From positions 1,229,501 to 1,293,500 of the forward strand of contig NC_037598.1 in the NCBI RefSeq assembly GCF_003073045.1: a stretch of 64,000 nt of DNA, given 5' to 3'. Position 1 is the first letter of the stretch; each line of letters begins with the position of its first letter. The notes under the pieces were generated by a model. It ran no database searches. It worked only from the letters and a program-made list of their open reading frames with translations, and was not told the DNA's origin. Position numbers and translations under genes: made by a program. Source of the DNA: Pomacea canaliculata (lineage: Eukaryota; Mollusca; Gastropoda; Architaenioglossa; Ampullariidae). This document shows positions 21,384 to 64,000 of this stretch, piece by piece.

Positions 21384-24300
21384 ATGGCTGCCTGGGTCAC
21401 ATGCCTGGTGACAACCGTGCTTGGCCTTCTGACCACAGCATCTGGGGCTGGACCTACCACTGCTGCAGGGACCAGTGAGTTGCTTTATCTTAGTGCTTAC
21501 AACGGGGGTAGTCTTTGGACAAAATAGGAAATGACATATAGGATTACTTTAAAAAACAAAACATGAACCTAGTTGTAAAAATCCTAAAGTAATTCAATCA
21601 GATCCTGTTTCGCTGTAATCTGTCTTTATTTGTCTGTCTCTCGTTCTTCACCCTGGGAAGTTGGCTTTGACTAATAGTACCCTCAAACCTTAGTGACCTG
21701 ACCTCTGGAGATCACAAATATTGTTCCTTGTAATAAACCTCGTTAGAACCACGCGCAGTTTCAAACAGCAAAACTCAGTCCACTGGGTTTATTGTGTTTA
21801 CCCAGGTAGTCAGTCGGCATGGACATGCGTCGCTAGGAGATAAGAACAACATACCCACTGGGGGCATTGTAATTCATTGGAAAATGTAGTTTATGTCAGG
21901 AAAATAGTGGTTTCTTATGGAAAAAGGGAATTCAGCTTCCTTGTGGGTAGAAGGGCAAAGGTTAAGGCAACGACTACCCGATCAGGCTTGGGAGACCTGT
22001 TTACATTGTCAAGTATGCAAACTCATATCAGTTATTTATGCTCAGACTTCTATTCAGGTTCCTGTTCACATCCAAAGTTCACGTTTAACAACCAGATTGA
22101 AGTTTATCTTTAGATGATGTGAGTTCTACATACTCTTCTCTCTCTCTCAGAGGGAGAGACGAACACACACAAATATATAAATTTACTAGTCCTAGGCATC
22201 CCCCACAGGTCTAGACAGATGTGTAGTCTTCATCAGTTGCACAGATGGCAGCAGCATCTTGCGAGGCAATATACTCTTGTAACGGGTGGCTTACCTTCCT
22301 CACAGTCCAGTGCCAACCCACCCAGTACCTGAAGGGTAGCACCTGCAGTCCTTGCGGCAACTGCGCAGGTAACAAGACATGTGACAGTAAGACGGGCAGG
22401 TGTCTTTGGGGCTGCTTACCTGGCTTCAAAATCTCTCCGGACACATGCACCGTAGGTGAGACGTTTTTACAACGTAGAAACAACGTAAAGTAACTCCACC
22501 CTTACAGTTAAAACTTATCATATAGAAAAAGACAAAGAGGAAATGATGCAAGCTGACTAGTTCTCTGACTGACCGACAGCCAACCAAACATAAACTAGAG
22601 TATACTCAATTTTAAATTATAAGAACTAATCACGAAATGTATATATCATGAGCAATTAATTTTGAGACTTATGAAAGATAATTTTATATTAATTTTTTCG
22701 AAGCTTGTGACAATGGGAAATATGGACAGAACTGTTCCCAGACCTGTGGTCAGTGCAAGAATAGAGCAGCATGCCACACGGTCAGTGGCAGTTGTGCCTC
22801 CTGTGAACCTGGGTATCAAGCTCCACTATGCAAATTAGGTAAGGTCATCGTGTCGGATGGAGAGAAAGTTGGTCTTGAACTGCGAGAAAGTAGAAGCATG
22901 CAACTCTGTTAACGGTATCTGTAAATCCTGTCAGCCTGGCTACCAAAAGTCATTCTGCATGTTAGTCAAGACCTCAGAATTGGATGGCAGATGGCTGTGT
23001 GGGTGGCTGAGTATCTTGAGAGTTGTCTGACGGGTGGACGTCCTTGTCCCTGCAGCTTGTGTTGCCGGAAGATACGGAGACAACTGCGGGCAAAGCTGCG
23101 GCCGCTGTGCGGGCAATCAGTCGTGCACTCACACCAACGGAAGCTGCTTGCAATGCCAAGCCAACCACCAGCCTCCTCTCTGCAAAGGTCGGTCTGTAGA
23201 ATATTATGGTTTGAACTGTTTAGCAACATGTACAGGTCGCGACATGTCTAGCGAGGTGTGTTTCTGTGAGTATCAGCCACGTGGCACCACGTGTGTTCTG
23301 TGTTTAGTAAACTATTTCTGTCATAATGTGTCAGTACCTTGATATAGGTAGTACATTGTGAGGATATTAACCTTATTGTTGTCAACATGTTCTTGCCTCA
23401 GACTGCACCGCGGGTCACTGGGGTGCAACATGTGGTCAGCAGTGTGGTCAGTGCGCCAGTGGACGATGTGATCGCAACACCGGGTGGTGTTCATCGCCCT
23501 TGTGTAAACCAGGATGGAGAGGACCGTCCTGTAACGAGAGTGAGTAGTCATCACACCTTGCTGCAGTGAATGTGAGTAATAATCAGGCTTGCCAGAATGA
23601 GAAACAATTAGGTCTCGCTGAAGTGAGAGACAAATAACGAGGGCTTGCCTGAGAGAGAGAGAAGCGGGTAGCGGAGAGAGTGAGCGGAAGTCAGAAGAAT
23701 AAAGTGAGAATCAGTGATATGTATCGATATATTGCAGTATATGAGTCTATCAATGATATATCGCCGCTTGGTATACTTTGCTGTGTATGAGTTTACCCAC
23801 ACTGTGTGGGAGGACTAGCCCGCCATCAATGGCTTACTGGACACAGGTTGGAACTCATCAGATTCGTCTCTCGAAATAGAAAATCTCGATGAGTACCTCA
23901 AATTACTTTTGCAGCTTGTGGAAATCACAGGTATGGACAGAACTGCTCCATCACCTGTGGTCAGTGCAAGAAAGGAGCAGCGTGCCACCAGGTCAGTGGC
24001 TACTGTGCCGTCTGTGAACCCGGCTATCAGGCACCACTATGCAAATTAGGTGAGGTCATCGGGTCGATCTTGCTGAACTACAATTAACTAGTCTTTTGAT
24101 GTGACCGTCCTCAAAAACTGAGAAAAAGCTTGTCTGTCTCTGTGTGTTTTTTCTGAGGGGGAGGGGTTGAGTGTGTGTGGGTGTGTGTGTGAGAAAGTAA
24201 AGAGTTGTCACTTTAGGTATAAATGACTGAGTGATGGTAATATCTTTTTTTTATATTTTACAGCAGGAAGATGTACTCCAACTAAATTGGTCTTTTGGTA

Positions 24301-25972
24301 TATTAATAACAAGTTGTCTTGTCTTGTCTAGTTATGTCATAAGACAGAGAGAAAACGATTATTGCTACCAGATAAAAACAAAATCAAAACAGAAATCATT
24401 CCCCCCGCCAACAAAAAAAAAAACAAAGAAAAGAAAACAAAAATAAAAGGAAAATGCAGTGGCACAACTGCAGAGTAAAAAGATTGGTCTTGATTCTAAT
24501 TGAAAAGCTTTAACCCATGCGATATTGCACGTGCTCATCCACCCACTGGATTACTGATTATCCATCAGTGGATAACAGATTATCCGCCCAGTGGATAATC
24601 CCCGCTGATAATCACCACTGATGGCGTTTCGCTGTCTCCATGGTGTGTTGCAGTCTGTCCAGGAGGTCGACACGGAGAAAATTGTTCCAAAGCTTGCGGC
24701 CACTGCTCTGAGGGGAAAGCATGTGACCCTGTGAGCGGAAACTGTTGGCAGTGCGCAGACAACTTCCTGCTTCCGCTGTGCACAGGTCAGTAACTGCTGC
24801 TCTCTACGTCACGTGACGTGCGCTCTCTGAGTCACGTGACCTCTTGGGTGAGCTGACATTCGTCTGGCTCTACAGGCTGGTCCACACAGCATGACACACT
24901 CAAGACAGACTCTCTTTCTTTATCATCATCGGAAACTGACTTCATCGAAATTCACATCAGTGATAAGGAAGACACAAGCTTTTGGACTGTAGTCATTGCC
25001 GTCCTTCTCTCTGTCTGTCTCTCACTCACACATACACTTTATATAGATATAGACACATTGTTGGTACTTTCTTATGAATCTTATGTATATGCCTGTGCAT
25101 CACGGGTAAATTGTGGACAGAAGTAAACCTCAAGGTTTGGAATCAGCTGGTCATGAATATGAAATAGTTTGGACTGTTGAACCTGTCCATCTGATGACAA
25201 GCTTTCTGGTGCCAGACTGTGTTGCCGGTCAGTGGGGTCCCACCTGTGGTCAGCGGTGTGGTCACTGCACGGGTGGACAGTGTGGCCGCTACACTGGGAC
25301 ATGTACCCAGACAGAGTGTCAGGACGGGTGGACGGACGCCTCGTGTCAGAAAAGTAAGAAGTGTTTGGTTCATTGGGTTGTCTAGTGGGGTGTGATGGGG
25401 TTGACATGGATGTGACTCTGATACAGACTGGACACAGACATGACATGTGGAGATGATATGATGACACTGTAACTCTGACACAGACATGACATGTCGAGGT
25501 GATATGATGACACTGTAACTCTGACACAGACATGACATGTGGAGATGATATGATGACACTGTAACTCTGACACAGACATGACACAAGTCAAGATGAGACG
25601 ATGTCATACACGGGACTCTTACACAAAGATTACAACAGTCAAGATAGGATCGTTTCTTCACTCATTCCATCAAGTAGCTTGAGATGTTTTCTGAGTCTTT
25701 GTACAAATACAGTGACCTGTTCATTCACTAGAAGATACGATTGTCATACTGTCATCAGTAGCAGCATATCTGTACAGAATGTCCCTCGGGTACATACGGC
25801 GCTAACTGCTCACACACCTGCGGCCATTGCTATGCAAACACTAGCTGTCGCCATGACAACGGAATATGTGAATCAGACTGCCAAGATGGCTTTTTCGGAA
25901 TTCTCTGTAAAAGTAAGAATTTTTTTAATTTTTTTACATTTTGTGTTAATTTTATTCTTGTTTTTTCTTATT

Positions 25973-26028
<56 letters not shown>

Positions 26029-27235
26029 AGTATCACAAAGACCTGCAACACACTGTGAACCACTCACTGGCCAAGCACAACATCTGGTGACACAGAGATC
26101 GTACAAGATGAGTTGTAGTCGCCCAACTACACACTGTGAACCACTCACTGGTCAAGCACAACGTCTTTGCGATACTGACATGTAAACAATGGTGTTGTCA
26201 TGTGTTGTGCTGGGCCCCTGCATGTTGCCCTGTGTTGTTGTGATGTCTATGTTGTGGTTGTTTGCTGGTTGTTGTCGTGGATGACTCCTACTATGTTACA
26301 GGGAGGAGTGAGGACCTGAAGGTTGTCGTCGCCGGATCGGTGGTTGGTGCAGCGACCTTAATATCGGTGACCATCGTCTGTATCTGCTGGTAAATAACAT
26401 CTCATAAATGAGAAAAATCTCTATGTAAACATAATCTGTACTTAATTATGGACAAAGCAATAAATTCTAAAAGAGCGTAAAATGAGTCCACCAAAATTAT
26501 TTCATTTTCTCTAATTTTTTTTATTGATTACCTTATTTTGAGTTATCTCCAAATAGATTAGGTGAGGATGTTGTGAATTAATCAACTTCCGTTATATTCT
26601 TTTCTTTTGTTTTGTTTTCCGCTGCAGCATTCTCCACAGGAAGAAGAAATATGACAATACTTCTAAAGGTGCGGATAGGTTGCAAGGTATGGAGCTTGTT
26701 GCTAATTACAGGGTGTGTTGTAAATATTCTGTATATTATCTGATAATATTCAGATCATGACCTTCGCTAATTCTGGTTATGACCCCTTGAAACCCTGATT
26801 AGGTCTTCAGTCGATGACATACTGATCATCCTCTCCCTGTCTCACGCAATGAATGATGGGATTCCTTATCTAAAACCCTCTAAAAACGATCTCTCTGGCC
26901 TCCGACACCTGCTGAGCATGATGTGTCCACATCTCTGTGCAGACCACAGGGGCAGAGAGGAGGAGACCCCGGAGAAGTCCAGTGAATCACCTGACTCCGA
27001 GAACAACCAGCTCCGGTGCTCTTCTACCTCGCGCATGCGCAGTGATCCCGCCTATGACCCCTTGAACGTGAACCCAGGAGCCATTCACCTGTATGAGACC
27101 TACTTCCGGTCACGTGCTCTCCATGGCGTTGACCCCGATGACCCGGCTGAGCCTGCTGCCAGAGAGGCTGAGGGAGAGCCAGAAGACATGTACCAGAATA
27201 TAAACATTGCGAGCATGCACAACAACTTTGTTTGA
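21384..27235 (+). CDS. EGF-stack single-pass receptor, gene 1
   Basis: Twelve exons: 21384-21474, 22306-22455, 22704-22838, 23056-23187, 23402-23539, 23915-24049, 24654-24785, 25216-25353, 25778-25912, 26302-26389, 26628-26686, 26943-27235. Phases agree throughout, giving 541 residues. Exon 1 is a signal peptide (MAAWVTCLVTTVLGLLTT). Each of the next eight exons is one phase 1-1 Cys-rich EGF/MEGF-like module, with patterns such as NCGQSCGRC and CQDGWTDASC. Exon 10 gives a transmembrane helix (about residues 402-425, AGSVVGAATLISVTIVCICW) and exon 11 a basic stop-transfer HRKKK. The tail has YDPL, HLYETYF and MYQNI. Exon 2 could instead begin upstream at 22245 in the same frame. The protein should be a plasma-membrane receptor or adhesion protein; the ligand is unknown. 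Resembles MEGF/scavenger-type receptors. Confidence 0.85.
22885..22966 (+). pseudogene. decayed EGF-like exon in intron 3 of EGF gene 1
   Basis: Encodes CNSVNGICKSCQPGYQKSFCML, like the second half of the modules at 22704 and 23915 (which end SCEPGYQAPLCKL). The first half has no clear counterpart and the expected tag-gt donor is altered, so it is probably not spliced in. Confidence 0.55.
24562..24624. repeat. imperfect palindrome just before exon 7 of EGF gene 1
   Basis: ccatcagtgg at 24562-24571 is the exact reverse complement of ccactgatgg at 24615-24624. Between them gtggataatc and related gattatcc units repeat. It ends about 30 bp before the acceptor at 24653, where the branch point is expected. 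Confidence 0.6.
25431..25582. repeat. 46-bp tandem repeat in EGF gene 1 intron 8
   Basis: About three and a half units containing acatgacatgtggagatg and atgatgacactgtaactct. Open minus-strand frames here come from the repeat. Confidence 0.85.
25976..26028. repeat. (GTT)n microsatellite in EGF gene 1 intron 9
   Basis: About 17 perfect GTT units. Beyond it a sequence containing cactgtgaaccactcactgg is repeated twice (26049 and 26130). Confidence 0.95.
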
Positions 27236-31616: not shown

Positions 31617-34600
31617 ATGACAGTCTCGTCGGTGCTGGATTTGTGTATAAAACTTCTCCTTTTAATCATACCTGCATGTCTGGCAACCTCAACTACACCT
31701 GCACCTGCACCAGGTGAGTCGTTATGGTACCCACCTCTCTCTCTCTGTCACTCCATTTTCTTTTAGTTCTCTCTCTTCTCTATCTCTCGCTTCCTCAATC
31801 TCTCTCTCTTACCCACTCCCATATTTTCTACTCATCACCCTAAGGCTCTCTCTCTCAAGTACCTTCCTCCTCTGTGGTTGTTTTTGTCAAAACATCCGGG
31901 TACAGCGACAAGTGGACAGACGTCATGCGTGTCCTGCCCCCAACGAACAAGAGACAGACATCACATCACGAAAACACACACACACACCCTTCCTCCCCTC
32001 CCCCCACAGCGCACACACGTCATGTATGTCCTCCTGCAAACAATAAACATATCACATCACACATACACACACACTAACATGCATGTACACACAGCTGTTT
32101 GTCCCCACCTTCTCTCTCTCCTCCCCGCACACAGAATGGCGTTCACACGAGTTGCGACGCATGAACGCCTCTGACTGGCCTCCGATGTCAGAGACCAGGT
32201 GCACTGCGACCCTGGCGTGGCAGGTGAATGGTTAGCACCTAGCACGCCGTGGCAATAGTATATATCCTATATATTTGTAGAGGTTTGACTGTAGATGTGT
32301 GTAGTCTGTGGTCTGTAGACATTATATATATATTTGTAGATGTGTGACTGTAGATGTCTGTAGTCTGTCTGCGGTCTGTAGACATCATATATATTTGTAG
32401 AGGTTTGACTGTAGATGTGTGTAGTCTGTGGTCTGTAGGTATCGTATATATTTGTAGAGGTTTGACTGTAGATGTGTGTAGACGTCTGTAGTCTGTCTAA
32501 GGTCTGTAGATATCATATATACTTGTAGATGTTTAACTGTAGATGTGTGTAGATGTTTGTAGTCTGTGGTCTGTAGACATTATATATATACTTGTAGATG
32601 TGTGACTGTAGATGTCTGTAGTCTGTCTGCGGTCTGTAGATATCGTATATATTTGTAGATGTGTGACTGTAGATGTGTGTAGATGTCTGTAGTCTGTGGT
32701 CTCTCGACATCATATATACTTTTAGATGTGTGACTGTAGATGTCTGTAGTCTGTCTGCGGTCTGTAGATATCGTATATATTTGTAGAGGTTTGACTGTAG
32801 ATGTCTGTAGTCTGTGGTCTGTAGACATCATATATATTTGTAGATGTGTGACTGTAGATGTCTATGTGCTAAGAACTACCGCTTATCTAAGCTCTCAGCC
32901 GGAGACCACAAAGTAATCACGTGATGTACCTCCACAGTGACGTGTCCCCCGAAGACTTACAACCCCCCTACCTGCACCGCGTGTGGACAGTGCGCAGGAG
33001 GCGCGCAATGTGACGTCAACAGCGGTATCTGCCATTCCGGATGTCAACCTGGATACATGAATAGTGACTGTAAAACAGGTGAGACAGGTACACCTGTAAA
33101 TTACAGTAAATGGTGTGTGAGACAACTAAAGGTTTAATTAACATCGTCTCTCACACACAAACACCACAACACACACACCGCGACACACACGCACGCACAT
33201 ACAAACACACACACACACACGCACGCACACACACAGAAAGAGAAGTGCAAGCAAGAACAGGTTTAACAGAAATATTATCCCACAAAAAACATGATTGACT
33301 ACCAGTCACGGTATAAATGTGTACAGTACTCATGCTGTACTGTGGTGTTGTACTCATTATTGGGTGGACAGCGGGGTAGGCAGGTAGATATCACTGGAGC
33401 TCACGTTTGATGAATCACAAAAGCATACCACGTAAATATATGATGGTGAAGATACAAACCCATCTACATGCGAGAACAGGATTTTGTGTCTTTTATATCA
33501 CGACAGGATTTCACGTGTAGAGAAGCTATTTCGTTCCTGAACTTTGACTTCTATCCTCCCATACAACAGATGTGTATACTACACACCTTTGCTACACTCG
33601 TCACAGGTTGTATCACCATGTATCACCTGTCCACACTTCCTGCTCTTCTCCGTACTTAGTAATCCGTGACCTTTAACCTCGTCACACTGATGTCACGTAG
33701 AGTCTCGTAGTTGTGCGATGAGAGCGATGAGAGTCCTGTTGTCTTTAAGACAAAGAGATTTTAAAGGGACTACAACAGGTGACTGGTTCAGGCAATTAGA
33801 GACAGAAATTAATAAGTGATGACAAATTGTGTCACACAAAACTGTCAGGTTACTCAAACCGCCATGTCACACAAGACTGTCAGGCTGCACATAGGTGCGG
33901 AAGTGACGTAGGTTTACATACATGGCTGTGGTACACACCCTACATCTCAGAGCGAGGCTGGATGAAAGATGTGTGAAGCTGTCAATAGCGATCGTGCTTT
34001 ACTTAGAAGAGAAATATTTACTCTTCGTGACTTAGAGGATGGGAGGACATCTGTGCACGAGAAGCCGAGACTCGTAATAGACAAGAAGACAAGAAACTGG
34101 AATAGACAAAGAGGCAAAGAAGACAACGAGACTGAGAGGGAGAGACAGAGACACCAGTAGAGGGAGAGAAGTTTATCTACATCCGTCAGAAGGCCTGAGC
34201 CGTGTCCCGTGGATGGTCTGAGGTCCTGTAGTCACGGATTACCGGGTGAACCCACATATAGGTGTTCCGGCTACAGGGGTCCTGGGGTCACAGGTCAGTC
34301 GGACCATCGTGCAAAATGGCGTCTTGAGGCTGCAAACATGTACACAGTGTGTCTACCATTATGTACCTACTGTGTCTGTAAACATGTACACAGTGTCCAC
34401 AAACATTACATTCTGTATACACATTATGCAATGTATGTACAAAGGTGTACACAATGTGTATACAAACAATGTGTGTACATATGTATACACATAATACACA
34501 ACATGTCTACAAAACATGTTCACAATGGGTTGCTATAAACACAAAAACAAACCCAAAACAGGCATGAGCGATATTAGAAGAGAACAATTCAATGAAATGG

Positions 34601-37600
34601 AAATAACGATGAATGACACACATACATAAATAAAACATAAGCAAAATGTGAAATAATATATTTATATCTTATGTTGTTTTATTTAAAATAACATACGCTG
34701 TTATCACTTTTATCTATGATTGTGACTGAGGATCATGTTATGAAATCACTTACTGGTTATAGAAAATGAAATAAAAAACAGTGTTGTGGTGTAGACACGA
34801 GCCACCATCTTTGTTGTACAGCACGCACATCACGTGCATTATGTTGTATATATGTTTTATATATATTACTTTCAGAGTGATCTGTTCTTAGAGACTATTT
34901 TATTATTGCATCGTTCATTAAAAACTTGTACAATCATAGAATTTATGTGTGTGTAGACTGTAGAGCAGTCTTTTTTTCTGCAGCTTGTCCCAATGGATTC
35001 TATGGCAATTGTACGATGAAGTGTGGTAACTGTAAAGATGGAGTACCGTGTGATAAGGTCATCGGAAGTTGTTCCCAGTGCAATGGAAACTACCAGCTTC
35101 CCTTGTGTACAGGTAGGTCCATCACCATCTGTGATGTTGTGGTGAATGTGTTATCTGCTGATGTCATCATCATCTGTGTGTCATCCTCTATACTTCACTA
35201 GTCATCATCATCATCTGTGTGTGTCATCTCTATCTCACTACTAGTCATCACCAGCTGTTTGTGTCATCCTCTATACTTCACTGTGATGTGAACAACACAC
35301 TAACTGTTGTATATAGTTTCCATGGTATGTAGAGCCACAGAAGTCATAAACATAAGTGGATATATTGTAAAGAATGTGTGTTTATACTCCTGTGTGTGCG
35401 TTGATGTGAGACTGAGATGAGGAAAGCATGTTACAGTCAGACACAGTAACATTCTGTGTGGAGACATGATGTACTTATGGTTGGTGTGAGTGTATGTAGT
35501 GTGTGACACATCTACCTACATGTCTGTACTCTCACACAAAGTGTGTCACAGCAGATTCCGTGTTTTGCAGTTTGCATCAATGGATACTACGGCACCGCGT
35601 GCTCCAACCCCTGTGGTAACTGTAAAGATGGACTACCGTGTGATAAGACCACCGGAAATTGTCTCCAGTGCCGTGGAAACTACCAGGGTCCTTTTTGTAC
35701 AGGTTGGTCCATCACCATGTGTGATGTGGTGAATGCTGTCATCTGTTGATGTCACCACCATCTGTGATGTTATGGTGAATGTTGCCATCTGTTGATGTCA
35801 TCACCATCTGTGATGTGGTGAATGTTGTCATCTGCTGATGTCATCACCATCTGTGATGTTATGGTGAATGTTGTTATCTGTTGATGTCATGTCAGGCTTC
35901 ACATGGCCTCAAGTCAAGCAGTCGCCCACCTCACCTCCGACATGGCTCTTGTCAGGACTAGTGATAGTAATAGTCTCTTCTCTTGGTCTGTGAGGGTCGT
36001 GTATAGAGACTGTAGATATAGTGAGGGTTGTGTATAGTGGCTGTAGATATAGTGAGGGTCGTGTATAGTATGGGTTGTGTATTGTGAATGTCATACATAG
36101 TAAGGGTCGTGCATAGAGAGGGTCATTCATATACAGTGCGCGTATGCGAGCGAACATCCTTAATATGTGTCCGATCCCATATGTCACTTGGTATCTATGG
36201 TGACTGACGTGTATGGATAGTGGGTAGTAAGTAATAGAGATTTATAGTGTTTATAGTGTATAGTGTTTGGGTAGTGCATAGTTTATGTTATAGTGTATGT
36301 GGGTAGTGTTTAGTGTACGTGTATAGTGCATTTAGGTAGTATATAGGGTAGCCAGGTAGTGTATAGTGTGTGTGGGTAGTGTATAGTGCAGAGCTGGGCA
36401 AAGGCCGGCCCGCGGGCCGGATCCGGCCCGCCTCCTGTCTCTGACCGGCCCGCCCGCTGGCCCGCCCGCCAGTTTATATACTATATATACAATATTGGGT
36501 AAAACTGAGTTAACTTTATTAGTCCGGCCCTCTAAAACCATCCCAGTTTCTCATGCGGCCCCTTGGAAAAATTAATTGCCCACCCCTGGTATAGTGCATT
36601 TAGGTAGTGTATAGTGTAGGCAGGTAGTTTATAGTGTATGTGGGTAGTGTATAGTGCATTTAGGTAGTGTATAGTGTAGGCAGGTAGTTTATAGTGTGTG
36701 TGGGTAGTGTATGTTTATAGTGTATAGTGTCTCGGGGTATAGTGTATAGTGTATGTGGGCAGTGTAAAGTGTAGGAAGAGATTGTAGAGTGTTGTTTGGG
36801 TTGTATGTGTGTTAGGTTTTTGTTGAGCAAGGGCTGACCACCATCAAATTAAACTTCTAGTGTAATTTCAATTGTAATTTTTTTCCTGAGTAAACATTTG
36901 TCGACATCCGTGCTAAGTATACATCCACTCGACATTCATGTTCAACACAAGCCATGTAGACATTGCTGCTACAACTACATGGAAGTTGTACCCAGTGTCG
37001 TGGACACCATCAGCCTGTCAAGCTACGACCCATGGTTGCCTGCTCCAGTCTGTTTACACCTTGTGTACATTGGTGACCCTTCACTATCTCTGGTGACCTC
37101 ACTGTCAGCTGTTTGACGACTGTTAAGTTTATGTTTGGACAATGGCTTGCCGTCTCTTGTCTGTCGGTGAATGGTGGTGTCAGGGAGAGACAGACAGAGG
37201 AAGATCCTGCCATTGGAGTTTTGCACCTGACGCGTTTTCAATCAAGTAAACACAACACCTGAATGCGGATGTACAAACCAGTTTCTACATGACCACATGA
37301 AGCTACTTCCTTCTTTCACTGCTTTCCTCCCAAGCTACACCCTCATATACTTCGCTAGCCTCGTCACTCATGTTGCATCGCCAGTCCTCACTTCCTTGTC
37401 TTCTCTGTGTTTAGTAATCCCTGACCCTTGACCTCGTCACGCTGATGGTTACGGGAGTCTCGTAGTTGTGTGATGAGAGCGAGACAAGTTTTTTTGTATT
37501 TCACACAAAGGATTTTTATTTGGTCTGGATTTATGATTATCAAGTATTTGACTGTCTAGATATTTTTTGTTTGTTCATGCGACAATATTCTGTGGACTTA

Positions 37601-44402: not shown

Positions 44403-44512
44403 TATTTAATAATAAAAATATAATACTACTACTGCTAATAATACATGTAATAATAAATGCGTGATTTGTATAGCGCATACTCAGGCACTTGGAAGAGGGT
44501 CTGCACATCACA
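44403..44512. repeat. dispersed-repeat fragment with aataat tail
   Basis: A run of aataat/tactac units followed by gcgtgatttgtatagcgc and atactcaggcacttgg. This resembles the 3' tail of a common invertebrate interspersed repeat with a simple-sequence end. The family cannot be fixed without a repeat library. Confidence 0.4.
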
Positions 44513-47500: not shown

Positions 47501-48487
47501 CAAGATGACATCCTATCTCCAGAGCAGGCTGCTGTCTTACAGATGACCCTGATACGCCATGTCACGCTCAACCTGCTGCTGGCAACCTGTGACATCACGC
47601 TCAACCTGCTGCTTGAAAGTACCTGGGGACACTAGGTGAAGTGGGTATTCAATAAACGAAATATGTTCGCAGTGGCTCCAAGTGCATGTGAATATTTGTT
47701 TCATGCTAACTTGCGAAAGTTTACAGTCAAACTGGATGGACTGCTTACTTACAGGATTGAAGACAAATATTCGCTTTCTCGAGACAGTTCAAGGTTTACA
47801 CGCTCGACCCGAAAAAGGAATTTCGATTTCATTGTACATTTTCAATAGCAAAAAAAAAACAACAACAAAAACTAACAGCTTTAATATACCCCCAATTTAT
47901 TTAAGAGAGTTTGTTTTAATCGCGGTCTCAAGTGCAAGTCGAGGTTTGGTCTGGAAGGTCGACTTTACCGTTTGCGACCAGCGACTTCAGACTTTAATAC
48001 AAAAGGTGTTTAAAGCGAGTGTAGACTGAACACAATGAACGCCATTTCTCCCACGAATTCTGAGAGTTCTCGCTATTTATATTATTTATTCAAAAGCTTT
48101 GACAGACTCCTGCGAAATAAAGAGGATAGGGTGAACAACAGAAGGATCGAACAAAAGAAAGAGAGATAGGACTGATGAAAGAGAGAGAGGGGTGTAATGA
48201 AAGAGAGAAAAGCGAAGGAAAGATACGGCCATGAAAGATAGAGAGTAGTGTAGCAAAGAGAGAGAGAAAGGAGTGAATGAAACGGATAAAAAGAGCGAGA
48301 GAAGTTGAAGTGGATTATAAACAATATGGCTTCCGTCATTTCGACCATGAGATCAATAGCAAACCTGTTAACAGGTTATTGACAATCTTGAAAGACGTTG
48401 ATACAAAGGAATGTTTGCTGTAAATATTGCCAGGAAGCAGAGCACTCACTCACTCAATGGTCTGATCTCAAGGTTGTAGTCATGTGA

Positions 48488-48500
48488 GACGTCACGTGAC
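48488..48500. promoter_or_regulatory. overlapping CRE and E-box upstream of the lectin-like gene
   Basis: gacgtcacgtgac joins a TGACGTCA-like core to a CACGTG palindrome, about 65 bp before the ATG at 48566. It may be a bZIP or bHLH binding site. Function is inferred only from motif and position. Confidence 0.35.
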
Positions 48501-48565
48501 ACTCCTCCATCACTAGAGCAGTCAACACACTGCTGGCATTTGTACCAGGGGAGGAGAGACGAGCG

Positions 48566-52309: not shown

Positions 52310-55300
52310 TCACATGCAGGTGTTGGCGTAGATGGCCTCACCTCTGATGTACTCCTCAACAGCCTCGTACAAGTATCTGTACTGAACCTGTGTAAGAAAG
52401 TTACAACGAGGAGTTAGCCATACTATGACAAACATTACCTCCAGGATAAGATGATATAAAAATTCACTTATTGACCAGAAGATAGGACACGAGGAATTTG
52501 AAGGGGTGATGGTCGCCTAATAACTATCGATGATACATCCATCCCCATCAATTACCTCCATGTACACAGGCACATACACACACTACATCCTTTCTTGTGT
52601 GCTGTCGTTTCCACACCACTTTTCTATCACAGACACGCCCACATTGTCTGAACATGACTCACACACTTCAGACCCACAGTAGATAGAAAGTGGAGGCGTT
52701 TCTGGTCCTACATGTACACTGATGTCCAAGATGAATGATGCAGCCATACCACAACAAACAAACAAACATCAGCAGGAGGATGTTGACATGCCCTGACATA
52801 ATCTGTAGAATTAATGTCAATACAGCCCAGGAATGGAAGCAACGGGGACATAATGACAAGGTAGTGTAACCTGGGTGTCCACGCTCTGGGGTCGCACCAC
52901 GTGCAGTTTGCGGACCGTTGTGTACACGTCCAGCTCGCGGTCGTACTTCACGCGACTGATGACGTCACACAGGGCGCAGAAGAGTCCGCTCCTGAAGGCT
53001 CCATCACTGTGACAGAGGAGACAAAACACTTTAGACACCAGACATCTTTTCTCTCCTGATGACATGTGATTGCACCTTTGAAATCATCAGAAGAAAGATA
53101 AAAGTACTCAAAGACTAGGGGTGAGAGCAGCAATCAACGACACTTCAATCTACTGCGTTATATTTCATAAAGGTGAAAATGTCGATTTGTGTTTGTTTCT
53201 GATATCTGAAGAAGTAGCTTTCTCACAACAAAACAAGGTGGTTGTGTAATTATTGAGACTTACATGCACTGCACTAGTACAGGGGGAACCACTTGCTCTT
53301 CCTCAGAGCCGGCCAGAAGTTCGGCGAGCTTCAGGACGTCTGGTGTCGTGCAGGGTAGGTCATGTGACCAGTTTCCCAGGTGATAGAGGCGAACTTTCTG
53401 GGGAGGTTCTTTCTAAAACCGACACAATCCAGACTTCATGGCACCATCTCAGGTCAAAGCTTGCAGTTAAAGTTTATCTAACACTGACTACAAGATAAAC
53501 AGGTAGACAACAGAACTCTTGGTGCTGACTAAAAGAAAATAAAGATGTGTTTTTAACACCCCTCCCTCAAACAAAAACAAAAAAACAGAAGGTAGATGGG
53601 TATTTCATTTACAAAATACACACAGGTTACACTGACGTCATACGTTGTACTTAAAGTTTACAGTAAACAACTGAAAATATTGCATTTAAAGACACAGACA
53701 GGGCATACACCTCGTGGTGCAATGTCTACTCGCTGACCTCATAGGTTAGAGTCAGGTCATACACGTGACCCTCTTCCCCAAACTCCGCGTGAGAAACCAG
53801 GGAGACCTCAAAAGAGTCAAACAGCCTTTGTTCCTCCATCTGGCGGGGCCAGTAGCAGCCGTTCTGTATTTAAAAACAAAATTTACATGAGACTGGCATA
53901 TAAAAGAGAGATGGAGTTATTATCCAATTTTATGAATTCTTTTTTAACCTAGGCAAGCGTAAATGGGATAAAAGTATGGAGTGAAGTGTAGCTATGAATA
54001 AGCTTTAGACGACCGAAAACAAAATAAAACATATATATATATACAAATACACAAGCACAAAGTTACATAAACACTGATACATACATATAATTATACCCTC
54101 AAAAAGACACACACACCTGAACGCACGCACGCGCGCAGCTATGAAGTCCGTTAGAAAGCTTAGATAACAAAAATAAACACTGCTTAAAAGAATTAAAAAC
54201 TCCAAAAGTAATTAAAAAGAAACGATTACAATTGTTTCGAACGGACTGGACAAGCACTTTGCCACACTCGCTGTAAGAACTGACTTCTGGACTGTCGGCC
54301 TCAGGTCCCAGGGAGACGATGGTGGTGATGCCGGCCCCCTGCACCAGTCGCCACACATCCACAACCGTGTCCGGCAGAGGGAGCTGAGTGAGGATCCAAC
54401 CATTCCAGTCTGCAAACGACTGCAATTTCAAACAGAAAAAATAGTAGTAGCTCACAGTGTCCAGGCCTGTAGGGAAGACATAGCTGACCTGCGCCAACCA
54501 TCTTAACAAATGTCGCAAATCTTACATGTTGAAGTATAATGTGAAAGTCGTATTCTTGTTGTTATTAGGTAAACAATAAACCTTCGTCTGTCAAGACATG
54601 CATTGCAGTGTATCTCTGTCTGTCAGACATGCATTGCAGTGTATCTCTGTCTGTCAGACATGCATTGCAGTGTATCTCTGTCTGTCAGACACATTTTCAA
54701 ATCCCTTTCTTCCAGCTTGACTGACTTTGACTCTTGACTTGTTCTTCGCCTTCCAGAAACACTGAAGTGTACAATCCTGACTTTTTGCAGACTGGTTATA
54801 TATACAAAACTTATGAGGAGAGGTATTAAGCCTACATTTAAAGTTCACAGAATATTTTTGTCAACCATACATTTGATAAGACTTACCGACAGGTAAACGG
54901 CATTGATATATTGGTTGCGGTCTGCCACCCGACAGGTCAGGTACACAAGGTAGTTTTCATCTGAGACAAACATTCAAGGATTCACAAAAGACTGTAATGT
55001 GCTTAGATTGTAGATTGTGAATGTTTGTCCTGATAGCCTCGCTCATGTTTGTCTTTATGTTCTCACTCATGTTTGTCTTTGTCTTGAACTATATCCACAG
55101 TCCCTAAAGCTGTCAAGGTGTTGCGTCCTGTTGTCCTCAGACTCGAGTTCTGTTGTGTACTGCGTATCTCTCGTCTCGAGGCGAAGATAAATCTTTCGGA
55201 GGACTTTGTTTCTCTTGTATTGTTGGCTTTAACCTTAATACTTAACCCAGTTGTAAATAGCTCACCTGTCTTACTGACCGACCTGACTAGTCCAAATATT

Positions 55301-56643
55301 TCCTCTTTATTACATGTTTTATTCGTACTTTGTCGAAGTAAATAAAATTATAGTTTTTTTTCTATTTTGGTATTTCTTGACCATTAGGTCAAGATATATT
55401 GAAGACTGACTAACCTCAATGTCTTATCTAAATAGTTCTAATGTTCTTGCTTCGTTAACTTTCTACAGCATAGTCAGACAATAAACATGTCGAAAAATAT
55501 TACTCAATTTTTTTACCTGGCAATACTTCAATGTTTCTATTCTTGTTAATGTTCTCGTCAGACCTTGCCGAAGTGTAGACTGGTTTTCGGTCCAGTTTCT
55601 TCATCTGTAACAGCATCTGTAACCGGACAGCAACTATTACAACAGGTCCCCTGGGAGTCAAACAGTTGCAGTCAACTGATGATGATGATAGGATTGATGC
55701 TTGTCAAACCCATCGTTAATAATCTGATTTGATTTTTAGAAAAAGTCCCACACAACAATTGTAACTAACACATTATGGTTAAATTAATTGTCTGACGATG
55801 AGCTGCCAGGTCAGGTATTCTCATGAGTCTGGTGACGGCAACAGGCGACACTTCAGTGTTCACTTGCTTGTCAGGTCTACACACATGACTCGAGTGATCA
55901 GCGTTCACTCACCTGTAGGTTCGACACACGTCACGTGACCTCACTGCTCACTTACCTGTAACTCGGCGTCCACTTGTTCGTACAACGATTCACTCAGGAA
56001 TGGTAAGACAATGTTAGAGCCGTCTAGAAGGACTCTGCTGCTGTACCCGGAGTACGCCTCTAGAACCGCCTTGTACACGAACTGGTACTGATCCTGCCGC
56101 CAAGACACAAATGGCATCGACATCACGGTGACATCACATAATGGGTCTTTCACACACACGCACACACGCACGGGTACCTATGTGACACCTGGGTAGGGTG
56201 AACGACTTGTTAGTTGCAGAACAATGTTAATGTGGTTTTGGAACTGAGTGTACGACACCCTTCTACTCTGGCTTATTGACAGGTAAACATACAGTTGCAT
56301 ACAGGTAAACCGTGAAGCAACCAGGACCCGTGTGTACACACCTGTGCACCTTAGTTACGAGGAGCTATAGAGGCTATCAGCCTCATTCACCTGCCAGCTG
56401 TGTACCTTAACTAGAAACAAGGAGAAAGGTGATGGGGTATACCTACCTTAGCTTGCACCATGTTACACCGATCTTTTCTCAGCTCCACGACGACCTGAGG
56501 TACATTGATCTCCCCTTCCTCCAGCGCCTGGTCCATGAGGATGTCGAGAGCGATGAAGGTCCCGGTCCTACCTACTCCGGCACTTGAAACACACACACAC
56601 ACAGGCACACACACACACACACGCACACACACGCACGCACACA

Positions 56644-56684
<41 letters not shown>

Positions 56685-59600
56685 AATTAATTTTCTTCTT
56701 CTACTCGTTAAAATCTAGAGATTCTCGCTAGGTGCACTTGCCAGATAATTTGATCGTCGGACACAAGACTACTTATCTAAAAGTCAGAATCATCTTTGAC
56801 GTCAGTTTAAGGCCAGACACCGGTCGAAAAAAAAAGTTTTTTGTTTCACGGGATAGCGCGGATTTTTTTTTACCAGCTGTTTAGCCTTTGAATGAAGTTT
56901 AAAAAAATTGTTTTACTGCACTCGTCGCGCGATCGGTTGCCATGGAAACAATCCAAAATGGCGCCCAAACAAACATTTTAAAAAGCTTATAACTTTGCCA
57001 ATTTTGTGAGTAGACTCAAAATTCTGTTTGAAATAGTTACCTAAAAGTAAGATCTACAAACGTAGGAGGGGGATTTTGCAAAATCGGCTTAGTTTTTTTT
57101 TTATGAATTTTTTTGTAAAACACTGTGTTAAATTTTAAGAAATTTTGATTTAAAACGGTATAACTACCAAAATACTAAATATTTTGTAAAAAGCTCTCCT
57201 ACAAATGTTTAAATTTGTATGAAGAAAAGCTCAACCAAATTGCAGATCTATATCTCTTGTCAAAAAGAAGGAGTTAGCTTTTGAAGTAAACAGTCTCTAA
57301 CCAAAACAAGAAGCTGAGAAAACGAGGAAAGAAAAACTGAAAGCTTAGTAACTTCTAAACTACTCAATATTTTTTTAAAAGCTCTCATAGAATTGTTTAA
57401 ATATGAATAAAGAAAACTTCAACCTAATTTTAGGCCTGTATCACATGCCAATATAAAGTTATAAGCTTTTGAACTAAACAAGCTTACTAAAACAAGAAAC
57501 TGAAAAGGCGAAGGAAAACAAAGTGAAAGCTTAGTAACTACTAAACCACTAAATATTTTTTAAAAAGCTCTCACTGAAATGTTTACATATGTATGTAGAA
57601 AACTTCATTCAAATTTTAGGCCTGTATCACATGTCAATATAAAGTTATAGGGATTTTAAGTAAACTAACTGTAACAAAAACAATGAATGGAAAAAGCGCG
57701 AGCAGAAATATCAAGCTTAGTAACTTTGTTTTCTCTAAGCCTTTCATGTAATTTACCTGCTGAATGAAAAATATAACCATCTTTCAATGTGTTACTACAT
57801 ATAACTTTAACATTACTAATAAAATTAATTATTTTATTCACTTTTAGAAAAGTCAACATGGTTGTGTTGTGTACCCAACTGCTGACCAGGCTTCAGAGAA
57901 GTACACAGTAATAAAAACAATGGTGTTTGCAAACATTGAGCTACACAGTTATAGGTTTAGTTAGTTATATAGAAGTTCAGTGTCCACTAGCTTCATGGTT
58001 TTTGCCATCTTTGGTCTTTTGTTATCTAACATTTAGTGATGATGTCGCATATTGCTTCCAATTTTTGCGAGCATCTACTGAAGTAGCAGCATTAGTAGGA
58101 AACACTCTCATCTTTCTTAGCCTTCAGTTGCAGGGTGATGGGATGAACATCAATTAAAGAAATTATTTCAAAAGCTTATAGGGGAGTATAACCAATTCTT
58201 GCAGCCCTATGCTCCACTGGGGGCGAATAGGAATAAGAATAACCTATTCATGAAATCTAGAGATACATCACTGACTGCACCAGAATTTAAGCAGCTGCTC
58301 ATGTTCTGTTCCTCTGTATGCTAGGATTATTTTATGAATTACCTCTGTAGTCACATGGATTAAAGATGGTTGATTTTTGTAGCCAGGGGGTATCTTATTT
58401 TCTGTCAAAGATTTCTGGGAAAAGCACCAGCTGTCTGCATGGCCTTTTAGGGGGCTGACAATGATGTGTTCTCTAGACACTGAATGGCTTCAAACTTGAC
58501 TAGATAGCAGTTTTCATTGTTTGTTAGGAATGCTATACATAATTGTCTTCACATTCTGTTACATTTGGTTGGAGTAAGACCATCCAACCCCCACCCAACC
58601 TTTGTTTTCTGTGCAAATGATGTAAGCTCTGTTTCCCTACATTCCTGACAAAGTACATAAATAACTAGCATTGCAAGTTGACTCAAATGTGTAAATGTTC
58701 GCATCTAGTTGTGATTACTACCGAGGTTTGCAGCAGAAATGAAAACTTCGCTTTATTTTCAGCTCGCTTACCACATGACTGATGGTGTTTTCGACAGTCG
58801 AATTCGGTTCACTAAGTTACTTTTTTTAGCTGCTACGACGGTCTAAGAATGTCCACGTGGTTTTTATTTTTTTGCACGTGGTATTGTGAGAAGAAATGAG
58901 CGTCTGACAGGCACAATGAACATGTAATATTAACGTTAATGTCTTAGAAAAGAAAATATCCCAGAACAAGCTTTGACTTGCTGTCGCCATTGTTTACACA
59001 TCCGGAGGCCATGACAGTTGCCTTGTGGGATACCCGAGCACAGCCGAAGCGTGTTCGTGTGCCCTATGACCCCGTCTAGGTCGGCATTAGTGAATTCTGA
59101 TTGGCTATATGCAAAGTATGTTACGCATGCGTCCATATAAGGAAGTTTCCGACCCTTTGTGTCGTCTAGAAAAGAGCTTGTATCATAGCTTGGGGCCTTC
59201 TAAGGGTTTTGACTCAGCCTTTGTTTGAAAATTCATGTCCTGACCTTTCGACCGATATACGATGTGACACAGTTGCCCACGTGGCGAGGTGTGTTGCTAT
59301 GTCTCAAACATTCTCTATTCTCGCTAATTCTGCGCTCGGGAAAAGTAAATAGGATAGAAGTAGATGTTTTCATTGACAAAATAGACATATTTCTAGATTA
59401 TTCTATGAAAAACCACTTGGCGAGTGAATAGAAACAAAATATGAACTTTGACAGTATGAAGTAATCTGAAAATGGCCAAAATGTAAAATTTTTGACAATT
59501 TTTCGACCGGTGTCTGGCCTTAAACCGTTTAATATTCATAAACAAGTTTAGATTAACTTTTTTCTGACAAAGAAGACTGACAGCTGTAATGGTGTAGACT

Positions 59601-62600
59601 ATTTCTTTACTTGTTTACATCTTAAGATAATGTCAATTTATCGCCAATTTATCAAATCAGAGACAGCGGTGGTGGTTAGTCTCTGTTTCTGTTTTCAGTT
59701 GTCTAGGCTGTAGCATTCTTCGATCTCTCTATCTACTGGAAAAACTTCAAAGGGTTCAGAATAATGCTGCTTGTGTTGTCATCGAATGAGAAAAGCGAAC
59801 ATGCTATCATCTCCCTCCTCCTCCTCCCCCTCCTCCTCCAGCTTCACTGGCTGTGACTTCGCATTGATTACAAGATCCCTGGTTGATTGCACGATCACTG
59901 GTTGATAACAAAATCACTGGTTGATTACACGATCACTGGTTGATTACATGATCACTAGTTGATTACCAGATGGTCAACGTACCTGCAGTGCACCAGCAAG
60001 GGGCTGCCGTGTTCGTTCATCACGTGATAGTCAATCCTCACTCGCCTCCAGAAGTCCACCAAGTCCGTCACCTTAGGGGTGGAGTGGTCTGCCCACGTGA
60101 CATAGTGGTACTGAACCACCCGACGTTTCTCCTTCCAAGTCATATGAAAGGTCAATGAGAATTAGTGTTCATACCTGGTCAAGGTGTGAGTGAGGTCAGA
60201 GGTTGGTAAGGTCGATAGCATCAAGTTGGGTTATTGTGTTCCTAATGCAGGATGTTAAGCTCGTGTAATGAACAATTAATAAACAAAAGGGAATACCTGA
60301 TGAGGCATCAAACTAGTGTGTGTCTATGATCTCAGTGGAAGCATCCTGCCGCCTTATTTTTCTGGTATATAGAGAAAAGACTAACATTTGCTAATTTATT
60401 TCTCTGGTATGTAGAGAAGAGACTCACACCCTGTTGGTTTATTTCAAATGTCCTGATCTCGTAGTCAGCTCTGTCGACTACCTCCAGACCCATGATGATG
60501 AAAGCTCCGTGCTCCATCCCAGCACCCGCCGGGGGCCAGTACTCGTCACACTTATCCTGAGGCAGACCATCACATTCCATTTGGTCACATGATCTTTTAC
60601 TCTCGATTTCATTTCTTATCCTGAGGTTCAGTGATTGGTGCGTGACCGAGCTTGCAGTGACATGTCCTGACATTCTACTACATGACATGTTTGGTGAATT
60701 CATGAGCACATTTCACTTTCAATTGATCACGTGATTGATGCTGAAAATTGCATCACCTCATTTAATGTTTTTTTACTTTAAATAGTGAGCCACGTTAAAG
60801 GAACAATGCATGACATTAGACATAAAATAAAACGCAAGGCGGCACAAAAAGATGAGAAAACAGAGGAAAAGACGAAAAGCTAGAGGTCGCCACACACTCA
60901 CTCTCTTGCCCTCCTCACAGTTGGTGAGCATGACGATGTGAGTTATCCGCTCCTGCCACACCATTCTCCAAAAATCAGTTGTAGTGTTTTCCTTTGGTCC
61001 TGAAATTTCGTAATGTTTTTGGTTTGGCCAGTAAGTGTGAAATTACATTTCATTGGTCAAACTTATTTACAATACTCAATACTCATTTACGCCATTGGCT
61101 TGTTTGCATTAAACTGACATTTTATTCCTGCTTGTGAGGTTTGCAAGTTTAATTTTATTTGAATTACGCCTCTTCATTCAAAGATTTAGTAAACTCTCTC
61201 GCTTCCTTCTTTCTGTCAGTTCTCACCACTCCACTCGCCTACCTCACCCACTCACAATCACCGTTGTATAAATGTGTAAATTCAGCAACTTTGACGGCAT
61301 TGTAAGTGTTTCGAATGTACAGAAACTTACCCTGTGCTGCGATGTACTTTTTTTCTTGCTTGTAACCCTAGTTACACAGGATACAGTGATATTGTTAACA
61401 TTTCCTGCAGTTTTAGTAATACATAAGGTTTTTAATTCACTTACACTGATATGAAATTCATTTTTTTTAAAGAAAACTTCATGAAGCTTACCAGACAAGT
61501 AAGATAATATGAATCAATAATCCACAGACTTTTTATAGAGAAAATACAAGTTTACTAGCAAAACATTTTCGAGGGAGAGGGGAGGTAATTGGTGTTTTAC
61601 TCCGAACCTTCAACTATATCAAGGGAGAGCATCCAGAAGAGTGATGGAGTGAGCGAGCGAGTGAGATAAAATGTGTTTGTAGCAGTTTTTACATGATGAG
61701 CCACACTACTGTGAACTTGACATACTTGTAGTTATAGTTTGTTACAAGTAAATTTTCTATAAATCCTTAGAGGGACATGCCGCATGTGTACACAGGTAGC
61801 TTTGTGCTATGAACAGTGAGCGCGCTCACAGCAGTACCCTGATGTAGTTGGCGTTGATGTAGTCGTTACTGTTGCAGTCCCCGAACTCTCGGAGAACAAC
61901 TCTCGTTTCTTCATCTGCAACAAGGCTAGAGGTCACGATTCTGCTCATAGAAAAGTTCTTTCGATAACAACGGAGAAAAATGAGAATGCTGGTAAAATAC
62001 GTGAGTTAGAAACACCAGAAGTGACACGTTTGTCAACAAATACAAGTCTTCCAGCGTTGTTCTAAACATCTAATGACATCAAAAATTTAAATAAAAAATA
62101 GCGTTCTCACGTTTTGATAAGTCTCGAATATCGACATTCTAACACATCGCAAGATATATCACTATTATATAAACATTTATGTCAGATTCCCAGACAGCAA
62201 CAGATGTACAACCCGAAGGATAGATAAGGGTAGATACTTCAGGAAGCGTCTGACAAGTCACGTGTTTCTCAAAGATGAATTATGCTACCTGTGATATTGA
62301 AAGGAAGCCAACTTACACGGCAGAATGCTTTTGAATCTGTTCTTGTTGAGGTTTTCCATGGACAAGCCGCTATTGTGAGGTTTTTCCAAGCCGAGAGGAA
62401 TATTCTGGAACGAAAGATTTTCGATACAAAGACAAAGTCAACGGAGTTTGGCAGTTCAACTCTTTTCTTTACCGATAACTGGTTGTATTGGTTGTCTTGG
62501 TTACATGTTGCCAGCAGTTTCTTTTTATTCCAAAATTCTTTAACTACTAATACAATGATAATTCTTTATTACGAGAGGTAAATTAACCAAGACATTTTTT

Positions 62601-64000
62601 TATTTATCCCTCGCTCTGTACGAGGTAAGAATAAACTACGTAATGAACTAAATACTAAAAAATAATTATTAATAAACATAACATAAAATCAAAAGAGAGT
62701 GGATGGTAAGTATGTGCAATATTTAAAGGGTTCCTGTCTGGAACATAGCTGGTGAACAAATGCTATGATTTGTGAACAGTTCCTCACATACTTTCTTTGT
62801 TTCAACAAACGAGCGCCGCTCAAAACAAACCCGCAAAAAACAAACAACAAATTTAAAAATAAAATCGTCTTTGGTTAATTGAGGAGGTTAATTTTCAACG
62901 TGCTCGTCACAACAGTTTTCCTTATTCGAGAAACTTTAGCGATAGGTATCCTGTCAGAAACTAAGCCTAAACTTTAGGATAGGTATCCTGTCAGAAACTA
63001 AGCCTAATTTTTGTTTTTGTATGTTTTGTTTGTTTTTTAGAAAAAGGTTTTTGTCGGAAGTTTTTAGAACGGTGTTCATTGCATGGGGATCGTTGTAACA
63101 TGTTCCCCTTAGTTCACAAAAGGAATTGACTAGCCTTACTACAGAGCAGGCCTGGCATTGTACAGTGAACTGTTCACTGAGGGACGCACTGGGGTCAGTG
63201 TACAGGGAAGTTGCAGTCACCACGATGACATTTGACACTCCATACTTCTCAAATCTTTCCTGGAGCCACTCAAATTTAGGCCCAGCGAAAGTGTAGACAA
63301 AGTGTAGACAAGATTATGAAGAAGTCCGAAAGTATGAAAACATTAGTTCGACATTACCGCGACTGGAGAGACACGAGTGATGATAACATATTATAACAGA
63401 CGGGATGGTCAGAGATGTATAATGATTGTTTAAAGTATGTGTGCCTGTGTGGGGAAATCTTGCTTTTGTCTGCCATTTGTGTTTTCTTTGTGCATATTAA
63501 CATCAAAATGCCTTCTTTGACTTTTCTACCACTGATACAGCTGCTTCAACCATCATATGAAGACCGATGTTTATTATGCTTCCACTCTACATCACATTCT
63601 GAGCATGTTATGAAAAGAACAACAGTTGTCTGTTGGGCAAACAGTCGTCAAGCAGAAGCTGTACTCACCTCAAATTCTGCTTCCAGACTGTCTTTGGCGT
63701 TTAGCATGGACAAGAGTGACCGCTGCACTGGGTCCCACAGGTCCAGGCTGCACATGTTGGCATACTCCATTCTTCCCTCCATCTCGTCTGCCTCCCTTGG
63801 TGCGCACGCTTCCTCCGGCCTGCCGCTGCTGTTGCTGCTGATGCGCAGCAAGGTCCTGGCTCGTGAGGAGATGCGGAGGGAAGCCACGTCCTGTCCCCTG
63901 CACGTGCACAGTGTGTTCGTCCGCAGCGTTCCGCTCTGCCGGACATGAGGCTTCACCGTGGCTGTGGGTCGGAACCCCAGACCTGCGACCCCACAAGTCC
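52310..64000 (-). CDS. receptor-type tyrosine phosphatase, cytoplasmic D1-D2 part (N-terminus outside window)
   Basis: Exons on the minus strand: 64000(open)-63669, 62404-62317, 61914-61838, 61367-61331, 60999-60902, 60556-60428, 60131-59983, 56582-56447, 56093-55956, 55604-55517, 54960-54887, 54419-54285, 53863-53738, 53412-53264, 53009-52871, 52387-52310. Phases agree across all junctions. D1 shows NLNKNRFKSILP, DYINANYI, DFWRMVWQERITHIVML, CDEYWPP, WADHSTPK (the WPD loop with Pro replaced by Ala) and the P-loop HCSAGVGRTG, split between two exons. D2 shows NINKNRNIEVLP, DVWRLV, CYWP and QCIDGAFRSG (His replaced by Gln), with NWSHD in place of WPD, so D2 is probably inactive. The protein removes phosphate from phosphotyrosine under the plasma membrane. 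Its membrane helix and ectodomain must lie upstream, beyond the window. Confidence 0.9.
54583..54690. repeat. 38-bp tandem repeat in a phosphatase intron
   Basis: Three nearly identical units of acatgcattgcagtg followed by tatctctgtctgtcag. Confidence 0.9.
56584..56685. repeat. CA/ACGC microsatellite beside the D1 P-loop exon
   Basis: cacacaca grading into acgcacgc, starting about 10 bp before the acceptor of the exon at 56582-56447 on the minus strand. Confidence 0.95.
56811..59519. mobile_element. TTAA-flanked DNA transposon (Kolobok-like or piggyBac-like), 2.7 kb
   Basis: GGCCAGACACCGGTCG at 56811 recurs as its exact complement at the right end (the match extends over a following A-run), and TTAA flanks both sides (56807-56810 and 59520-59523). 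It lies in the phosphatase intron between exons 60131-59983 and 56582-56447. On the minus strand 58480-58268 encodes HADSWCFSQKSLTENK and PPGYKNQ, resembling the DSWCxxQ region of the Mutator-like transposase domain I associate with Kolobok. This is from memory and tentative. Near 57150-57700 are three or four diverged units with gcttagtaacta and aggcctgtatcacatg. No full transposase frame exists. Confidence 0.8.
59883..59963. repeat. 20-bp tandem repeat in a phosphatase intron
   Basis: About four units of ttgattacacgatcactgg, just before the exon at 59983 (its donor side on the minus strand). A (ctcctc)n run lies at 59815-59840. Confidence 0.85.
62941..63007. repeat. perfect 30-bp direct repeat in a phosphatase intron
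   Basis: gataggtatcctgtcagaaa followed by ctaagcctaa occurs at 62941-62970 and again at 62978-63007, separated by seven bases. Confidence 0.95.

Follow-up and report, generated by a model that had tools for sequence, protein, structure and literature searches.

An EGF-stack receptor, F-lectin-like and receptor phosphatase locus of Pomacea canaliculata, probably the edge of a gene cluster of the SudRes1 kind

SudRes1, a locus of Biomphalaria sudanica associated with schistosome resistance, is the closest described system to the genes considered here. According to the available part of its report, SudRes1 comprises 23 genes, of which 10 carry MEGF domains, and among these 10 there are three MEGF/galactose-binding-domain (GBD) receptor phosphatases; 13 of 14 further MEGF/GBD receptor phosphatases are clustered nearby, some MEGF or MEGF/GBD genes are not described as receptor tyrosine phosphatases (RPTPs), and antistasin genes are among the neighbors (PMC12297450). 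The available parts of other reports state that receptor PTP, draper-like, and MEGF transcripts are enriched in oyster agranulocytes (PMC13070813), that MEGF and fucolectin are expanded in a vent snail, with PTPRK among the abbreviations of the same legend (PMC7895826), and that receptor PTPs are listed in snail hemocyte proteomes (PMC6281880). Here, we report that a stretch of 64,000 nucleotides from Pomacea canaliculata, called the window below (chromosome C9, NC_037598.1, positions 1229501-1293500), is probably the edge of a gastropod MEGF/F-lectin-like/receptor-phosphatase cluster of the SudRes1 kind. The assembly has 440,159,624 bases in 24 contigs, and C9 makes up 6.2% of it. About 160 kb beyond the window end and 40 kb ahead of its start were also read; positions above 64000 are window coordinates continued past the window end.

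Four genes were modeled in the window (Table 1): A and B, two EGF-stack receptors, and C, an F-lectin-like protein, all on the plus strand, and D, a tandem receptor phosphatase, on the minus strand. An array of four lectin-receptor genes, c1 to c4, lies past the window end. As far as the available part of the SudRes1 report goes, the two loci are alike in that one chromosome carries clustered genes for MEGF receptors, galactose-binding-domain proteins, and tandem RPTPs, among which paralogous copies occur and ectodomains diverge. They are unlike in that D shows no lectin or EGF exon and that here four genes for lectin-like receptors stand in an array, their tails being acidic and free of tyrosine. 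D clusters with further MEGF and GBD genes on its chromosome, and matches of the EGF, F-lectin, and PTP families are concentrated on C9, i.e., 94 of 106 matches to the end of B (90 of 102 without the present locus), 43 of 49 lectin matches (35 of 41), and 76 of 121 matches to D1, the first PTP domain of D (68 of 113); please note that these counts are lower bounds, that they are match totals minus the matches off C9 counted by hand, and that the queries came from C9 itself.

The first-pass annotation had seen here the best candidate in the window for an undescribed system. This fails for the cluster type, which has already been published as SudRes1 (PMC12297450, available part), so we consider the type known and the array adjoining an RPTP without lectin exons a new variant; no report of such an arrangement was found in searches of an open-access library. 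No link is drawn to a Biomphalaria PTC paper (PMC7494358), whose text mentions neither tyrosine phosphatase nor EGF, extracellular domain, lectin, or MEGF. PMC10875847 was also without any of five terms of this kind.

Splice sites of A to D were chosen by eye, and the GT-AG introns are therefore there by construction. The reading frames, which are unbroken throughout, and the phase of the EGF exons, which is 1-1 in every case, were not imposed by this choice. No signs of pseudogenes were seen in these hand-made models.

A and B have the same layout: a signal peptide, one EGF-like module per exon, a transmembrane (TM) exon of phase 1 to 2, an exon of 41-44 bases, and a tail exon. Exactly eight cysteines are found in 13 of the 14 modules of the two genes, and the remaining one, with an N-terminal extension, has 10. 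Judged from their sequences, A and B are paralogues: module identity reaches 62% for A7-B5 and 57% for A8-B6, their TM-plus-tail regions match with E 1e-12 in a two-sequence comparison, and the tyrosine motifs YDPL, LHLYE, and YQN[I/V] are common to both tails. Modules A2 and A5 are 80% identical, which points to an internal duplication within A. The module call is based on repetition, cysteine spacing, and a model made from the modules themselves. The Pfam scan of A gave nothing at E 0.1, and that of B gave EGF_laminin with 23.7 bits against a cut-off of 21, no individual stretch being significant. The nearest solved structure to A is the angiopoietin-1 receptor (E 3e-7). Receptors of the MEGF10/Draper/SREC type resemble A and B in their eight-cysteine EGF repeats, single TM, and tyrosine tail; unlike them, A and B have no EMI match in Pfam at E 0.1 and, by eye, neither an NPxY motif nor YxxL/I motifs at ITAM spacing. 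Because no EMI domain was found, A and B are filed only as EGF-stack receptors and not as MEGF10/Draper.

Gene A also touches a repeat. Tandem repeats that contain CAP-domain and ShK-domain gene pieces lie at 3773-8135, 13373-17739, and 18669-22294, and the first two are 96.5% identical. The third copy extends into A, and parts of exons 1-2 of A have truncated counterparts in both other copies, with 92-95% identity.

The lectin domain of C matches Pfam F5_F8_type_C_2 (E 2.1e-15, 57.5 bits against a cut-off of 27.8) and aligns with the F-type lectins FBP32 (E 5e-29) and eel agglutinin 1k12 (E 2.6e-15). Its C-terminal 80 residues match PAN_1 below the cut-off (E 0.077, 13.3 bits against 21.4). 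With a signal peptide and a stop reached without a TM, C is probably secreted. The fucose motif of F-type lectins is given as H...RXDX4(R/K) in the available part of PMC5712786. When C is compared with 1k12, His and both Arg align, Asp is replaced by Glu, and one residue is inserted; by eye, the motif His is absent from all four translations of c1-c4. Sugar binding by C and c1-c4 is doubtful because of the altered motif in the former and the lack of the His in the latter, and for this last reason c1-c4 are called lectin-like only.

Pfam Y_phosphatase was found in two stretches of D (E 4.9e-120), and the closest solved structures are PTPRS and LAR, with two-domain matches in PDB. The active-site loop of D1 is intact (HCSAGVGRTG), and its WPD loop (exon 60131-59983) reads WAD with Asp kept. 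The second domain, D2, is degenerate, i.e., QCIDGAFRSG with Gln for the active-site His, and WSH where WPD is expected (exon 53412-53264); D2 is probably inactive. D is thus like the LAR/PTPRS-type phosphatases in its two PTP domains, D1 loop, degenerate D2, and best PDB matches. It is unlike them in that no Ig or FN3 ectodomain was seen and in its WAD, WSH, and QCIDGAFRSG sequences. On these models, the two EGF-stack receptors with tyrosine tails and the tandem-domain receptor phosphatase named by the first-pass annotation are confirmed, and of its F-type lectin-like/PAN protein the lectin part stands and the PAN part is weak.

The frame of D runs on toward 64000, and no TM or ectodomain exon of D lies within the window, in agreement with the earlier placement of the ectodomain side outside it. 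Past the window end, the 1.5 kb separating the signal-peptide and TM exons gave no match to an EGF or F-lectin exon and, on reading, no convincing phase 1-1 exon, and because of this D is not filed as an MEGF/GBD-RPTP. The simplest model of D is a signal peptide, a TM, and PTP-PTP with almost no ectodomain, in which the joining of the signal, TM, and PTP exons is inferred. Both genome matches (2 of 2) of a query over the TM and juxtamembrane exons fall at the D locus, and no further exons resembling the cytoplasmic part were found in 64000-223500. At other loci, D1 matches have at most 66% identity, over short exons. In viral contigs, no pattern match to D-like DNA was found; in prokaryote contigs, the pattern matched nine stretches, none of which was confirmed. 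The suggestion that the neighbors are pieces split off from D is not supported: A, B, and C are whole genes, and the EGF or F-lectin domains sought past 64000 for the ectodomain of D are found instead in four separate adjacent genes.

These genes, c1-c4, have a signal exon, one small Cys-rich exon, a pair of F-lectin-like exons, an EGF exon with six cysteines (in three of four), a TM exon, and a short tail exon that is acidic, lacks tyrosine, and carries the stop in each of them; none has a phosphatase part. The signal peptide is the same in all four, and the signal exons are identical in DNA. No EGF exon was found in c3, where the expected interval holds a 5 kb run of N (assembly gap). AATAAA follows the stop in c1-c3, the three genes shown. 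Between their EGF exon and TM exon, c1 and c2 have a minisatellite that reads LILIKTFIG on the minus strand, and c3 holds similar sequence (73.2-73.7, 90.0-90.3, and 116.2-116.3 kb). We also considered a protocadherin-like reading, in which four ectodomain cassettes would be used with one common TM and phosphatase. As each cassette has its own TM and acidic tail exon, this reading is kept only as the improbable borrowing of a lectin ectodomain discussed below.

Phosphatases with a lectin/EGF ectodomain, which the first-pass annotation mentioned for molluscs, do occur in this genome, as judged from exon order, though D as modeled is not among them. One 9.5 kb stretch of C7, read as unspliced open frames, shows in order an N-terminal Cys-rich exon and an F-lectin domain, then six EGF modules of eight cysteines each, and, past a TM and a juxtamembrane exon, the beginning of a PTP. 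Ahead of the next PTP at C9 7.54-7.565 Mb, a region read except for 5 kb (7551-7556 kb), there are two F-lectin sets, a row of eight EGF modules, and a TM. At 16 loci, assigned by hand, PTP matches have EGF matches on their own strand about 3-9 kb upstream. The last EGF module of A and that of B both find their best match in the final module of the C7 gene, at 48-49% identity and with E about 4e-19 and 5e-19. Elsewhere on C9, five same-strand F-lectin exon matches at 7.506-7.566 Mb lie ahead of the next PTP match and may be a second array like c1-c4, with one or more lectin-EGF sets farther upstream than the set next to the PTP. About 14 F-lectin exon matches on both strands at 8.70-8.78 Mb, with no PTP among the matches listed nearby, are perhaps a separate F-lectin gene cluster.

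The lectin exons of the array diverge more than most of their flanks. Lectin exon 1 is 76-91% identical, with a 5' flank of 96-99%, and lectin exon 2 is 73-84% identical, with a 3' flank of 97-98%; over the array, 31 of 42 flank values are at least 85% alike, most of these above 92%. Differences pooled over the Cys-rich, lectin, and EGF exons amount to 17-25% versus 6-10% in retained flanks in all six pairs (z 5 to 9), where only flanks above 70% identity were retained (49 of 54 over the six pairs), which lowers the flank figure. Exon length changes are multiples of three. Nonsynonymous divergence (dN) exceeds synonymous divergence (dS) in six of six pairs, with a ratio of 1.5 to 2.7 when the Cys-rich exon is left out. 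Codon models, for which we wrote the code ourselves and used the Cys-rich, lectin, and EGF exons of the four genes (no EGF exon for c3), prefer a dN/dS ratio (omega) of 2.2 over 1 with twice the log-likelihood difference (2dlnL) of 17 (p 3e-5 to 4e-5); half of the codons fall into a class with omega 5.7 (2dlnL 55). About eight stops would be expected versus none seen, a figure that is indicative only, as substitution numbers were chosen roughly. Because the lectin exons diverge beyond most flanks and the codon tests favor omega above 1, the array ectodomains look to be diversifying under selection. A further exon between the two lectin exons was looked for and rejected, the divergence in that interval being mainly simple-sequence and length change.

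Several points, besides the origin of the count queries, weigh against this picture of a diversified SudRes1-kind cluster. Pfam recognizes the EGF modules poorly, and its lectin scores in the scanned array genes (17.6 in c1, 26.1 in c2, and 23.4 in c4) are below the 27.8-bit cut-off. The 5' flanks of lectin exon 2 are merely 74-94% alike, and the EGF exon is 72-82% identical with flanks no better conserved in five of six values. The selection tests use four sequences and can be inflated by gene conversion or recombination. The oyster granulocyte list, in the available part of the report, also has draper-like and EGF scavenger transcripts (PMC13070813). Gene conversion or shuffling with unseen donors, in place of selection, might have made the exons differ, and the closest pairs do vary by exon, c2-c3 for lectin exon 1 and several about equal pairs for lectin exon 2, which gives the array a mosaic look; we regard this as rather unlikely, considering that dN is above dS in every pair, that the frames are intact, and that no F-lectin match outside the array exceeds 50% identity to the query, so that no close donor is seen.

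It is quite possible, though not the reading that we favor, that the three families are simply large one-chromosome families whose members became neighbors by duplication history, with no phosphatase-receptor pairing; this would be compatible with the family assignment. The concentration of all three on C9, the position of A, B, and C on the strand opposite to D, and the MEGF and fucolectin expansions published for a mollusc (PMC7895826, available part) are consistent with it, whereas the co-enrichment of the families in oyster hemocytes (PMC13070813) and the resistance association of the like Biomphalaria cluster (PMC12297450), both from the available parts, suggest a common setting. D itself might be an ordinary RPTP with another ectodomain, whose exons were missed between the signal and TM exons or further off. 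Exons were found by eye and homology, and the tool searches covered relatives of EGF and F-lectin only; even so, with neither an EGF/F-lectin match nor a convincing phase 1-1 exon in the 1.5 kb interval, we think this improbable. D may alternatively borrow a lectin ectodomain, if transcripts start in an upstream lectin gene, skip its TM and tail, and join the TM exon of D to give lectin-EGF-TM-PTP isoforms. The phases fit this (the EGF exons end in phase 1 and the TM exon of D starts in phase 1), a single TM/PTP set faces four ectodomain sets, and F-lectin and EGF exons precede PTP at other loci. It seems improbable when every lectin gene comes with a TM exon of its own and with an acidic tail exon that contains a stop, adjoined by AATAAA in c1-c3, and D has its own signal-peptide exon, so that sharing is not required.

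We return to the SudRes1-kind cluster as the preferred reading. The cluster has probably grown by tandem duplication and exon shuffling, EGF and lectin exons being phase 1-1 and the TM exon phase 1 to 2. A and B would likely bind extracellular ligands or particles and could recruit SH2 proteins via the conserved YQN[I/V] and YDPL tyrosines. D would remove phosphates near the membrane and may counteract kinase signaling of its neighbors on the same cell, possibly by acting on A or B. C and c1-c4 may contact foreign or self surfaces, in a recognition or immune role; c1-c4 have no recognized signaling motif, and a partner would be needed. A more speculative extension, to which we give little probability, is a split diversifying recognition system in which enzyme-less lectin-like ectodomains and a lectin-less phosphatase are joined on the cell by alternative splicing or membrane association, with A and B as the phosphotyrosine side tuned by D. 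The SudRes1 report places MEGF and receptor phosphatases with lectin domains at a locus for resistance in a disease-carrying snail (PMC12297450, available part), and the same families concentrated on one chromosome of a second mollusc would make a SudRes1-type system more general among gastropods. The array may also serve as a test case, as identical signal exons, mostly similar introns, and diverged lectin exons point to residues under selection.

Table 1. Coordinates of the modeled genes and related features (window coordinates, continued past 64000)
Feature	Position	Strand	Composition	Basis
Gene A, type I EGF-stack receptor	21384..27235	+	558 aa, 12 exons: 21384-21474, 22237-22455, 22704-22838, 23056-23187, 23402-23539, 23915-24049, 24654-24785, 25216-25353, 25778-25912, 26302-26389 (TM), 26628-26668, 26943-27235 (tyrosine tail)	open frame; EGF exons phase 1-1; TM exon phase 1 to 2
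Relic EGF half-module in open frame	22839..23027	+	between A exons 3 and 4, outside the gene model	module model E 1e-8; cysteine pattern
Gene B, paralogue of A	31617..43474	+	452 aa, 10 exons: 31617-31713, 32938-33078, 34984-35112, 35571-35702, 38754-38885, 39418-39558, 40180-40314, 41881-41968 (TM), 42676-42719, 43155-43474 (tail)	open frame; A/B TM-tail alignment; EGF_laminin E 5.5e-5
Gene C, F-lectin-like, possible PAN-like C-terminus	48566..50293	+	256 aa, 4 exons: 48566-48635, 48688-48927, 49141-49359, 50052-50293	open frame; Pfam; PDB
Gene D, tandem receptor phosphatase, cytoplasmic part	63782..52310	-	583 aa within the window, 16 exons, high to low: 63782-63669 (juxtamembrane, start conservative), 62404-62317, 61914-61838, 61367-61331, 60999-60902, 60556-60428, 60131-59983, 56582-56447 (SAGVGRTG), 56093-55956, 55604-55517, 54960-54887, 54419-54285, 53863-53738, 53412-53264, 53006-52871 (D2 DGAFRSG), 52387-52310	frame; Pfam; PDB
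D TM exon	65927-66040	-	beyond the window	
D signal-peptide exon	67571-67663	-	beyond the window	
c1	72178-86699	that of D	tandem gene, upstream of D	
c2	88867-107295	that of D	tandem gene, upstream of D	
c3	115034-137451	that of D	tandem gene, upstream of D	
c4	about 141.5-153.2 kb	that of D	tandem gene, upstream of D	

At 8.6-13.1 kb, a stretch unmatched in the other CAP/ShK repeat units holds a DDE_Tnp_4 transposase piece (E 1.6e-20) and open reading frames on the opposite strand. This is a DNA transposon, probably ISL2EU/Harbinger-like.

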